From IMG/VR virus record IMGVR_UViG_3300022701_000186, positions 1-32,433 of that record: a stretch of DNA of 32,433 bases; one strand, written 5' to 3'. Made by a program: the position numbers and the translations under genes. The notes beneath the pieces are model-generated. The model searched no databases and was not told the origin of the DNA. It saw only the letters and a list, made by a program, of their open reading frames with translations. The stretch's first letter is position 1, and each line of letters opens with the position of its first letter. Shown one piece after another: positions 6,782 through 9,840 of the stretch. Source of the DNA: a virus.

Positions 6782-7762
6782 ATGAAAGTGCTTGATTTAT
6801 TTTCAGGTATTGGAGGTTTTTCTCTAGGTTTAGAATGTGCAGGATGGGAAACTATAGCCTTTTGTGAGATTGAACCTTCATGTAATAAAATTCTATCAAA
6901 ATATTGGCCTGATATACCTATTTTTGACGATATAACAAAATTATCTGCAAACGATATTGAATCTTCTGTTGATATTATTTGTGGTGGCTTTCCTTGTCAG
7001 GATATTTCCATAGCTGGCAAAAAAGCTGGTATAGGTGGTTTAAGATCAGCATTATGGAAACAATATTTAAGGTTAATAAATGAAATTAGACCCAAATATG
7101 CAATTATCGAAAACGTGGCAAACCTTCGTAGTAATGGACTTATTACCGTCCTGCAAGATTTATGGCAGATCGGGTATAATGCAGAATGGCATTGCATACC
7201 AGCTTCCGCCATTGGCGCGCCTCACCAAAGGGATCGCATCTGGATCGTGGCCAACCCCGACAACAAGGGATGCAACAATAACCAAGGCAAGACCACCAGA
7301 AAAAATGATAAGAAAAGACGGCAGGAATGTTCTGCGAACTCCATCACTGGCAGAAACATTATTGCAAAAGAAAAACTTTCCTTATACGAAACAGGATTTA
7401 CAAAAGAAACAACAGGGGCAAAATTACAAAACAGCAAAACAATTTTGGCCAACCCCGACTGCGAGGGATTACAAAGATACAGGCAAGCTGGAGGTTTTAG
7501 CCAAATACTCAAAGAAGAAAAGATTAGCTTGTTCCGTTGCAGCAGAGGAGTTGAGCAATGGGAAGTCGAGCCAGATATCGCAAGATTAAAGGATGGTAAA
7601 CTTAACGCAGATTGGGTGGAATGGTTGATGGGATTTCCTGTGGGATGGACAGAAGGTTTAACACGTAAACAAAGGTTGATAGCTCTTGGAAATGCCTTAG
7701 TACCGATTATTCCAGAGATGATCGGTGTTTGTATACAAAATTATGAAAACAGTAAGTTATAG
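6782..7762 (+). CDS. DNA (cytosine-5) methyltransferase
   Basis: A 326-residue C5 methyltransferase that adds a methyl group from SAM to cytosine in phage DNA. The motifs are in order: I, DLFSGIGGFS (5-14); IV, GGFPCQD (68-74) with catalytic Cys72; VI, ENV (110-112); VIII, QRDRIW (139-144); and IX/X, ALGNALVP (301-308). Residues 150-260 would form the target-recognition region and are unlike other families I know, while WEVEPDIARL and LNADWVEWLMGFPVGW before motif X are typical of phage enzymes. The 3' half has visibly higher GC than its surroundings and is open in a second frame (see 7080-7589). No cognate restriction gene is present, so self-protection against host restriction is likely. 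Confidence 0.93.
   Translation: MKVLDLFSGIGGFSLGLECAGWETIAFCEIEPSCNKILSKYWPDIPIFDDITKLSANDIESSVDIICGGFPCQDISIAGKKAGIGGLRSALWKQYLRLINEIRPKYAIIENVANLRSNGLITVLQDLWQIGYNAEWHCIPASAIGAPHQRDRIWIVANPDNKGCNNNQGKTTRKNDKKRRQECSANSITGRNIIAKEKLSLYETGFTKETTGAKLQNSKTILANPDCEGLQRYRQAGGFSQILKEEKISLFRCSRGVEQWEVEPDIARLKDGKLNADWVEWLMGFPVGWTEGLTRKQRLIALGNALVPIIPEMIGVCIQNYENSKL
7080..7589 (+). CDS. Candidate overlapping gene inside the methyltransferase (WPTP protein)
   Basis: A 169-residue +1-frame reading inside the methyltransferase gene. It has its own ATG, with AAGG 7 bases upstream. It encodes NGIAYQLPPLARLTKG followed by SGSWPTPTTRDA, and again WPTPTARDYKDTGK 66 residues later. From memory, this NGIAYxLPPL...SGxWPTPTxRD pattern occurs in stand-alone proteins of phages and metagenomes, so it is unlikely to be a random shadow. 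The DNA that reads as motif VIII (RDRIWIVANPD) in the main frame reads as SGSWPTPT in this one. Whether it is translated, or the product of an ancient frameshift, is unproven. Confidence 0.35.
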   Translation: MKLDPNMQLSKTWQTFVVMDLLPSCKIYGRSGIMQNGIAYQLPPLARLTKGIASGSWPTPTTRDATITKARPPEKMIRKDGRNVLRTPSLAETLLQKKNFPYTKQDLQKKQQGQNYKTAKQFWPTPTARDYKDTGKLEVLAKYSKKKRLACSVAAEELSNGKSSQISQD

Positions 7763-7771
7763 GGGGGCAGT

Positions 7772-8110
7772 ATGCCAAAAAAGAAAATGCCAGAAGGCAA
7801 AAAATTTCCAAAAGGCGTTAGTGGTAATCCTAATGGACGTCCAAAAGGTAGAATATCTTTTATACCAGCTATTAAACAAGCGCTAGCAGAATGTGTTGAT
7901 GATAATAAAGGTGACCCAATTCAGATGCGTGATGCCTTAGTTAAAACACTTTTAAATAAAGCCTTAGGTGGTGATATGAAAGCACTTGAATATGTTATAG
8001 ATCGTATTGATGGTAAAGCTTTACAAAATGTCGAAATGGATGCGCGAGTCGAAATATCAAAAGACAAATTACATAAAGTAGCAAAGGCCATAATAGATGA
8101 ATCAAAATGA
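7772..8110 (+). CDS. DUF5681-like protein, candidate small terminase subunit
   Basis: A 112-residue basic protein. The N-terminus (FPKGVSGNPNGRPKGRISF, residues 13-31) is the hallmark of the DUF5681 family, often found next to phage terminase and methyltransferase genes. The rest is helical (IQMRDALVKTLLNKALGGDM; ALEYVIDRIDGKALQ). A run of six G ends four bases before the ATG. Its last 14 bases overlap the start of the first DPPY methyltransferase. It could be the small terminase, which binds the packaging site, because no other candidate lies before the large subunit; this is contextual inference. Confidence 0.75.
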   Translation: MPKKKMPEGKKFPKGVSGNPNGRPKGRISFIPAIKQALAECVDDNKGDPIQMRDALVKTLLNKALGGDMKALEYVIDRIDGKALQNVEMDARVEISKDKLHKVAKAIIDESK

Positions 8111-8192
8111 AATGATATTTAAAGAAAATAGAATAATAACTAAACTAAATGATATTTGGCAATTAGGTAATCATAGGTTAATGTGTGGTGAT
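8097..8192 (+). repeat. 5' cassette repeat, copy 1
   Basis: These 96 bases at the start of the first DPPY methyltransferase match 8863-8958 with only four differences (766-bp offset). They begin with the 14-base junction ATGAATCAAAATGA, which holds both the start of this gene and the stop of the upstream one. The repeat forms the left edge of an exchangeable methyltransferase cassette. Confidence 0.85.
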
Positions 8193-8876
8193 AGTACTGA
8201 TATTAATCATATAAAAAAGCTTATCAATAATAATAAAATTGATATGTTATTTGCAGATCCACCTTATGGAATGAATAAAATAGGTTATAGAAATAATAGA
8301 ATTGGGGGAACAATTCAACCTGGTAATAATTTTATTCCTTTTAATGATAATATAGATAATACAATTAAAGTATTTAATTTAATACAACATTTTGATATTC
8401 CTATCCAAATATGGTGGGGCGCAAATAATTATGCTAGTCATTTACCTAATACAAATAATTGGATTGTATGGGATAAAAGAATTGAAGATAAACAAAAAGA
8501 TCGTCAATCAGATTGTGAACTTGCATGGTGTAAATCTCAATTTAAGTCTATTAGGATTTTTCGGCATTTGTGGAAGGGATTAATAAAAGATTCTGAACGC
8601 ATGCAAAAAAGAATACATCCAACTCAAAAACCAATTGCCTTAGCTGAATGGTGTTTTGAAGAATTAAGAGTTGATAATAATATACTAGATCTTTTTGGTG
8701 GTTCAGGCTCAACACTTATTGCATGTCAAAATACAAATCGTACTTGTTATATGATGGAGCTTCATCCTTACTACTGCGATACAATATTAAAGCGCTATAT
8801 TAAAGAATTTAATAAGCAGCCAGTTAATTTATTAAATAATAAAACGTATGATGAATTAAGTTATGAATCAAAATGA
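8097..8876 (+). CDS. DNA adenine/cytosine-N4 methyltransferase, first tandem copy
   Basis: A 259-residue amino-methyltransferase (N6-adenine or N4-cytosine). DPPYG (54-58) is the catalytic motif IV and comes before the SAM-binding motif LDLFGGSGST (197-206), the order of the beta class. HPTQKPIAL before motif I is typical. The N-terminus (WQLGNHRLMCGDST) is the YhdJ/ParB-methylase style. The first 96 and last 123 bases are nearly identical to those of the next gene, while the middle is unrelated, so target specificity probably differs. It overlaps the gene upstream and the gene downstream by 14 bases each. Confidence 0.92.
   Translation: MNQNEMIFKENRIITKLNDIWQLGNHRLMCGDSTDINHIKKLINNNKIDMLFADPPYGMNKIGYRNNRIGGTIQPGNNFIPFNDNIDNTIKVFNLIQHFDIPIQIWWGANNYASHLPNTNNWIVWDKRIEDKQKDRQSDCELAWCKSQFKSIRIFRHLWKGLIKDSERMQKRIHPTQKPIALAEWCFEELRVDNNILDLFGGSGSTLIACQNTNRTCYMMELHPYYCDTILKRYIKEFNKQPVNLLNNKTYDELSYESK
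8754..8876 (+). repeat. 3' cassette repeat, copy 1
   Basis: These 123 bases at the end of the first DPPY methyltransferase match 9718-9840 at 119 positions (964-bp offset). They encode the common tail PYYCD-ILKRYIKEFNKQPV... and end in the junction that starts the next gene. The identity exceeds what protein constraint alone requires, indicating recent duplication or recombination. Confidence 0.85.
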
Positions 8877-8958
8877 AATAATATTTAAAGAAGATAGAAT
8901 AATAACTAAACCAAATGATATTTGGCAATTAGGTAATAATAGGTTAATGTGTGGTGAT
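8863..8958 (+). repeat. 5' cassette repeat, copy 2
   Basis: Second copy of the 96-base block found at 8097-8192, at the start of the second DPPY methyltransferase. Four substitutions separate the copies, with no indels. Confidence 0.85.
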
Positions 8959-9840
8959 GCTCTAAGAGAAGAAAACATTGCATTATTATTAAATGGTAAC
9001 AAAGCCGACTTCTGTTTTATCGATCCACCTTATGGCATTAAAATAGATAAATGGGATAATCCTATTGATGAAAAGGTATGCTTATCATTAGTAGATAAAT
9101 TTACAAAAGAAAACAGCTTTTTTGCATTTACACATCAGATGCCTAAAATGCTCGATTGGTTAAAAAGTTTAGAGGATACTAAGTATAAATATAAAGATCA
9201 TATTGTATGGGTTAAGCGTGCACATAATTCACCAACTCCAGAAATTTTAAGAACACATGAAACCTTAATGATATATAAAAAAGGTAAGAAAAAATATGTA
9301 AAAACTAAAGGACTATATGCCGATGTTAAATGCCCCAACCTCTATTATGATCTTGCCAATATCAAATCTTTTAAAAGATATATAGGAGCACTGTGGAAAC
9401 AAATAGAAACGGGTGAAAAACAAATGAAAAAATATTCAGATAAAGCAAATCAAGCATATAAGTTTATGAATCATGGTCATGACACAGACGTAGCACCTAA
9501 AGAAACAAACTTTACTAATGTCTGGTCTTTTTTACCTACTAATAAAACTAAACTTAATGAAAAAAATCGTCTTGACCACCCAACCATAAAACCGATATTA
9601 CTTATAAATCGTATTGTTGAATTATGCGCGGGCGATAATGAGATTGTACTCGATATGTTTTTAGGTTCGGGTACCACCCTGCTTGCATGTGAAAATACTA
9701 ATAGGATCTGTTACGGTATGGAGCTTAATCCTTACTACTGCGATATAATATTAAAGCGCTATATTAAAGAATTTAATAAGCAGCCAGTTAATTTATTAAA
9801 TAATAAAACGTATGATGAATTAAGTTATGAATCCGAATGA
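8863..9840 (+). CDS. DNA adenine/cytosine-N4 methyltransferase, second tandem copy
   Basis: A 325-residue amino-methyltransferase. DPPYG is at 54-58 and LDMFLGSGTT at 263-272, preceded by HPTIKPILL, again the beta order. The central part (THETLMIYKKGKKKYVKT; FTNVWSFLPTNK) differs fully from the first copy and is about 65 residues longer, while both ends are nearly the same. The two enzymes therefore likely share a scaffold and differ in target. The start overlaps the first copy by 14 bases, and its end overlaps the large terminase by 14 bases. Likely role: modify phage DNA before packaging to evade restriction. Confidence 0.92.
   Translation: MNQNEIIFKEDRIITKPNDIWQLGNNRLMCGDALREENIALLLNGNKADFCFIDPPYGIKIDKWDNPIDEKVCLSLVDKFTKENSFFAFTHQMPKMLDWLKSLEDTKYKYKDHIVWVKRAHNSPTPEILRTHETLMIYKKGKKKYVKTKGLYADVKCPNLYYDLANIKSFKRYIGALWKQIETGEKQMKKYSDKANQAYKFMNHGHDTDVAPKETNFTNVWSFLPTNKTKLNEKNRLDHPTIKPILLINRIVELCAGDNEIVLDMFLGSGTTLLACENTNRICYGMELNPYYCDIILKRYIKEFNKQPVNLLNNKTYDELSYESE
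9718..9840 (+). repeat. 3' cassette repeat, copy 2
   Basis: Second copy of the 123-base block at 8754-8876. It ends in ATGAATCCGAATGA, a two-base variant of the junction, which here starts the large terminase instead of another methyltransferase. Confidence 0.85.

Follow-up and report, generated by a model that had tools for sequence, protein, structure and literature searches.

A gene nested in the +1 frame of a phage cytosine methyltransferase gene, probably encoding the target-recognition chain of a two-polypeptide enzyme

The stretch of DNA analysed here (32,433 nucleotides of a viral record, referred to as the window) belongs by gene content to a contractile-tailed phage, with genes for terminase, portal, major head and tail-sheath proteins located downstream. 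Its C5 cytosine methyltransferase gene encodes a chain, termed alpha, which carries motifs I, IV (PCQ), VI (ENV), VIII and X of the PF00145 family and in which, reading in frame 0, motifs I-VIII are followed by a linker of non-conserved sequence and then by motifs IX and X (Table 1). Inside this gene the +1 frame is open, as the initial annotation had described, and encodes a product termed beta that terminates at a stop codon at 7587-7589. The +1 peptides quoted in that annotation agree exactly with the translation, the same bases read RDRIWIVANPD in frame 0, and a 14-base block at 7248-7261 recurs without mismatch at 7446-7459, a spacing of 198 nt (66 codons), each time as part of a longer 24-nt repeat of 88% identity. 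The segment is also GC-richer than the rest (0.433 for 7080-7589, compared with 0.391 over the gene and 0.327 over the window). A tandem pair of DNA methyltransferase genes lies further along the window at 8097-8876 and 8863-9840; phrog_498 is the best match for both, and the N- and C-termini of the two proteins are nearly identical while their middles differ.

Table 1. Coordinates of the features at the nested methyltransferase locus
Feature	Position	Strand	Evidence
Alpha: C5 cytosine methyltransferase, catalytic chain, 326 aa	6782..7762	+	Pfam PF00145 E=4.8e-51; profile match to M.HhaI in PDB, E=1.3e-34
Alpha motif IV, GGFPCQD (catalytic Cys)	6983..7003	+	Sequence; invariant in the alpha alignment
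Shine-Dalgarno-like AAGG, 7 nt upstream of the beta ATG; +1-frame stop TAA between the two at 7077-7079	7069..7072	+	AGG at Arg codon in 9/11 clade members
Beta: nested +1-frame ORF, 169 aa + stop, ATG start; alternative ATG at 7098	7080..7589	+	ORF; phrog_1008 E=2.6e-11; +1 selection
Dual-coding segment: alpha motifs VI-VIII / beta N-terminus (QLSKTWQTF...GRSGIMQNGIAYQLPPL)	7080..7246	+	Lowered frame-0 third-position divergence
Alpha motif VI, ENV	7109..7117	+	Sequence; E and N invariant in the alpha alignment
Alpha motif VIII, RDRIWI	7229..7246	+	Sequence; alpha alignment
Putative target-recognition part of beta, two WPTPT units (7248-7262, 7446-7460); alpha frame an unconserved linker	7248..7586	+	+1-type substitutions; in-frame homologue in single-chain enzymes
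Motif IX (LNADWVEWLMGFPVGWT), in the alpha frame in the window	7601..7651	+	Aligns with M.HhaI KLHPRECARVMGYPDSY and, in hhalign (98.5%), with the C-terminal end of beta in relatives
Alpha motif X (ALGNALVP)	7682..7705	+	Sequence; alpha alignment

The +1 run of the window gene extends over 169 codons against 67 expected from 1000 synonymous-codon shuffles (p<0.001), and the other 29 of the 30 window genes tested all have +1 runs of at most 66 codons. Relatives were retrieved by means of the frame-0 protein, so that their choice is without bias toward the +1 frame. Among 65 non-redundant relatives the +1 run exceeds synonymous shuffles (p<=0.05) in 62 and the +2 run in three, and the free accumulation of stops in the +1 frame that the initial annotation had considered is not seen (350 stops against 579 expected, compared with 1027 against 981 in the +2 frame). 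The synonymous shuffles rule out chance or base composition as the cause of the open frame. As a control, four actinophage C5 methyltransferases have +1 runs that are unremarkable in three cases (p 0.46-0.79) and borderline in Spartoi (p=0.04), and the nested frame is thus not a general by-product of C5 methyltransferases. The +1 product has independent homologues, as it belongs to phrog_1008 (E=2.6e-11), a family also matched by the other beta frames that were tested; the protein-like frame suspected at the outset is a real and conserved one.

The distribution of substitutions over codon positions distinguishes which frame is under selection in each part of the gene. Within the clade of the window the mismatch at frame-0 codon positions 1/2/3 is 0.23/0.14/0.52 before the +1 ORF, 0.14/0.07/0.29 over motifs VI-VIII within it, 0.41/0.21/0.21 past motif VIII within it and 0.23/0.14/0.53 on its 3' side, and selection therefore passes from frame 0 to both frames, then to the +1 frame and finally back to frame 0. 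Frame-0 third-position divergence amounts to 0.21-0.32 over 7080-7246 compared with 0.47-0.56 upstream, and in bins of 60 bases it drops from 0.47 (bin ending 7081) to 0.32, 0.21 and 0.23; the onset of this synonymous constraint on frame 0 coincides with the beta ATG and its end lies near the beta stop. A substitution test was run on 62 disjoint pairs taken across the viral relatives as a whole. Of the 44 pairs with enough data past motif VIII, 38 have most of their substitutions in that region at frame-0 position 1, which is the third position of the +1 frame, and three at position 3 (p1>p3, p=1.7e-8); upstream of the beta ORF all 18 usable pairs follow the ordinary frame-0 pattern. The comparison of selection in the two frames across relatives, which the initial annotation had put forward as a check, thus reveals +1 selection past motif VIII, a hallmark of the nested alpha/beta family that the window shares. 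Mean amino-acid identity past motif VIII is 0.69 in +1 and 0.53 both in frame 0 and in +2, which means that the frame-0 translation is no better conserved there than the unused third frame; between the window and a distant locus (L021) it is 0.61 in +1, 0.27 in frame 0 and 0.24 in +2. Over 105 loci the alpha frame contains no stops through the recognition region where 345 would be expected from the beta sequence, a figure that arises partly by construction as alpha was picked as a stop-to-stop ORF, and an alpha frame that is open across this region is expected if alpha must reach motif X.

Protein-level selection acts on both frames, in complementary parts of the gene. Of the two options initially offered for this locus, namely that one frame arose by overprinting of the other or that both are expressed, the selection in both frames favours the second, and one-way overprinting is an incomplete description. 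Overprinting rather appears to run both ways: the N-terminus of beta is laid over motifs VI-VIII, and downstream it is beta that is selected and the alpha frame that seems to be the overprinted linker.

The ATG of beta is conserved, follows an in-frame +1 stop and is preceded by AAGG, GAGG or GGAGG 7 nt upstream. The Arg codon that makes up this element is AGG in 9 of 11 clade members, compared with 18.7% of their Arg codons overall (p=1e-5); one clade member (L116) is devoid of the first beta ATG. At L021 (2254-3630) the +1 ORF covers the whole methyltransferase and its own ATG is located 4 nt upstream of the methyltransferase ATG (ATGACATGGCTG). These features bear on the possibility that programmed +1 frameshifting near motif VIII yields one chain, composed of motifs I-VIII and the +1 recognition region, with no separately started beta. 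As far as the recognition region, the joined product would look like a single-chain enzyme, and selection of both frames in complementary parts would be accounted for. Frameshifting is nevertheless very unlikely, as the synonymous constraint on frame 0 already begins at the 7080 ATG, well before the end of motif VIII, this ATG is conserved together with its upstream AGG, alpha stays open through to motifs IX-X beyond the reach of a +1 product that stops at 7589, and loci of the L021 type have a +1 frame that is open from the alpha start.

Members of phrog_1008 appear as stand-alone proteins in databases, and the peptides of the +1 frame had at first been likened to such proteins. This likeness did not hold, since every WPTP protein examined in three frames overlies a C5 methyltransferase one frame back, which three-frame translation reveals to be either complete or truncated; a stand-alone family is rejected because all examples are nested in a methyltransferase. 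When bacterial genomes were scanned with the beta alignment, at least 443 relatives came up; the best 80, representing many phyla, were fetched. In all 80 of these best-scoring loci beta lies in the +1 frame of the methyltransferase with an overlap of >200 nt, as it does in the window; the median overlap of the two stop-to-stop ORFs among the same best 80 of at least 443 is 765 nt, and a fusion of beta and alpha into a single ORF occurs in none of them (0/80). Within the literature collection searched, no paper was found that deals with WPTP proteins or with cytosine methyltransferase genes read in overlapping frames.

Annotators have met the beta frame before, without explanation. In Paenibacillus phage Diva it is annotated as 'g49 internal gene', and in Smooch and others two overlapping 'DNA methylase' genes are annotated. 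The name of phrog_1008, 'DNA methyltransferase', is that of an enzyme, and by the present evidence the family would correspond to the nested chain. In Komagataeibacter phage phiKX1 (L201, 1309-1917) and in L002 (392-652) the beta frame is annotated as 'hypothetical protein' and the methyltransferase frame is unannotated; gene callers may choose either frame. At four further loci (L019, L020, L022 and L023) the alpha ORF comprises just 197-208 aa and ends shortly past motif VIII, despite a long and intact +1 ORF. Comparison of the window with the beta ORFs of L006-L009 reveals the gain and loss of WPTP modules of about 30-60 aa, with two in the window and up to five in L009, which may alter target specificity.

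C5 methyltransferases recognise their target through the stretch between motifs VIII and IX. In four single-chain actinophage enzymes (PFR1, Spartoi, Lton and Tweety; E 6e-11 to 5e-9) the beta profile finds the frame-0 region past motif VIII, and it has no match in the eight other frame-0 proteins searched. Between their motifs VIII and X, and in frame 0, all four enzymes have a PTP unit and, after it, motif IX. The type of recognition region, a PTP unit and then LNxxFxEWMMGxP, is common to them and the nested loci, but they consist of one frame and one chain. As beta is homologous to the VIII-IX region, which recognises the target, it would represent the recognition half of the enzyme. At the locus of Mycobacterium phage Tweety (L294, 547-1659) PTP units occur in the +1 frame and, more distally, in frame 0, where motifs IX and X accompany them, and this locus is possibly an intermediate between the split and single-chain forms. 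The +1 product has no Pfam match at E<=1, by which an HNH or other known domain is rejected, and no solved relative by sequence at E<=1. AlphaFold models of beta alone reach modest or partial confidence (pLDDT 71.5, and 58.4 for a relative), and a Foldseek search with the beta model found no solved fold (best E 3.7). A modest model of beta alone that matches no fold is compatible with an obligate subunit, without showing one.

That beta is an unrelated overprinted protein with a function of its own (e.g. anti-restriction), sharing DNA with alpha for economy only, is very improbable: the N-terminal part of beta is its own and lacks a Pfam match, as would suit such a protein, but in its C-terminal part the beta family has homology to single-chain C5 methyltransferases, over their recognition region and motif IX, and beta is nested in alpha at all bacterial loci fetched (best 80 of at least 443). 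It is hardly credible that an open and similar +1 frame is a mere by-product of frame-0 conservation and base composition, for although the N-terminal part of beta shares its bases with the strongly conserved motifs VI-VIII, in a GC-rich segment, the open runs beat the shuffles in nearly all relatives as given above and frame 0 is the less conserved frame past motif VIII. Equally remote is a homing endonuclease inserted out of frame, of the kind described as the ShiLan domain in phage methylases. Phage methylase genes with out-of-frame ORFs are on record (PMC11855218), and a hidden ORF in another frame of the gene is a shared trait, but the ShiLan-type element is an inserted homing endonuclease of sporadic distribution in the third frame, whereas the ORF described here is in the +1 frame, present family-wide, overlaps the conserved motifs VI-VIII with no insertion and has no HNH or other Pfam match.

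The position of motif IX sets the window apart within the family. In 89 non-redundant viral loci the C-terminus of beta reads LNPxWVEWLMGFPxGWT, a block that corresponds to motif IX as it aligns with M.HhaI KLHPRECARVMGYPDSY and with the block in the alpha chain of the window. Twelve distinct viral loci have motif IX in the alpha frame, with beta ending just before it; among the best 80 of at least 443 bacterial loci, motif IX is in beta in 72 and in alpha in none. In a tree of alpha motifs I-VIII the loci with motif IX in alpha fall within those with motif IX in beta and two changes are needed, on which grounds the return of motif IX to alpha looks derived. The window alpha has EPDIARLKDG and then KLNADWVEWLMGFP, whereas at other loci the same bases give EPxVGRVADG in one frame and LNPxWVEWLMG in another. 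This would be accounted for by a tandem duplication with a change of frame and a later loss of motif IX from the beta reading of the first copy. The window clade is a variant in which motif IX, normally a part of beta, is in alpha and beta keeps the recognition part only.

M.EcoHK31I is a two-polypeptide C5 methyltransferase that recognises YGGCCR, a sequence it shares with M.EaeI. Lee, Kam and Shaw reportedly found in 1995 that its small-chain gene is contained, in another frame, within the gene for the large chain. The large chain contains motifs I-VIII and X and the smaller chain is also required, as outlined in PMC3404938 and PMC3439449. In the summary given in PMC3404938 the small chain holds motif IX only and the predicted recognition domain is located in the large chain. 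The alpha chain of the window likewise has motifs I-VIII and X. It differs from M.EcoHK31I in that motif IX is in the large chain and not in the small one, and the window is for this reason regarded as a variant of the M.EcoHK31I arrangement. A second difference, relative to the description of M.EcoHK31I in the PMC3404938 summary, is that the recognition region is here in the small +1 chain, a discrepancy that counts against the reading proposed below. M.AquI, as summarised in the same paper (PMC3404938), has a second chain with motifs IX-X and half of the recognition region; a recognition region contributed at least partly by the second chain is common to both systems, but the beta of the window is nested and motifs IX and X are both in alpha. 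In Mycobacterium phage Smooch (L203, 930-1875) alpha stops soon past motif VIII and a +1 ORF contains the recognition region and motifs IX and X, an arrangement that is M.AquI-like and appears derived from the nested form.

The locus is best explained, with a probability of roughly 0.86, as encoding a nested two-polypeptide C5 methyltransferase with a mode of action like that of M.EcoHK31I; alpha (frame 0) would provide catalysis and beta (+1) recognition. Artificially split C5 methyltransferases are known to reassemble, and do so best when the split lies between motif VIII and the recognition domain (PMC3404938). According to the proposed mechanism alpha would be translated from 6782 and beta separately from its own ATG at 7080, with a ribosome-binding site of its own inside alpha. 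The first third of beta overprints motifs VI-VIII and the remainder would form the recognition region of WPTP units. The two chains are predicted to form a complex in which beta selects the DNA sequence and alpha catalyses methyl transfer, such that both are needed, and the likely role of the enzyme would be to shield phage DNA from host restriction. A wider proposal, put forward with less assurance but still judged likely, is that a broad, multi-phylum family of C5 methyltransferases is encoded by reciprocal overprinting. The first half of the shared DNA segment would be selected mainly in frame 0 for catalysis and the second half in +1 for recognition, each frame being a passenger in the half of the other, and the window clade would have shifted the boundary between frames and so returned motif IX to the catalytic chain. 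The published placement of the recognition domain in two-chain enzymes would then need revision.

To our knowledge long overlapping genes on the same strand are seldom accepted in bacteria and phages, and most cases rest on a single species. The overlap described here recurs in hundreds of loci from many phyla and shows a clear substitution signature and what would be an obvious division of labour. It would explain many 'hypothetical' WPTP proteins and a misnamed PHROG, as well as the fact that gene callers output sometimes the enzyme and sometimes its partner, and it predicts that many phage C5 methyltransferases cloned as a single chain would be inactive. M.EcoHK31I has already been used for targeted methylation (PMC3439449), and the nested family may offer further naturally split enzymes for this purpose.
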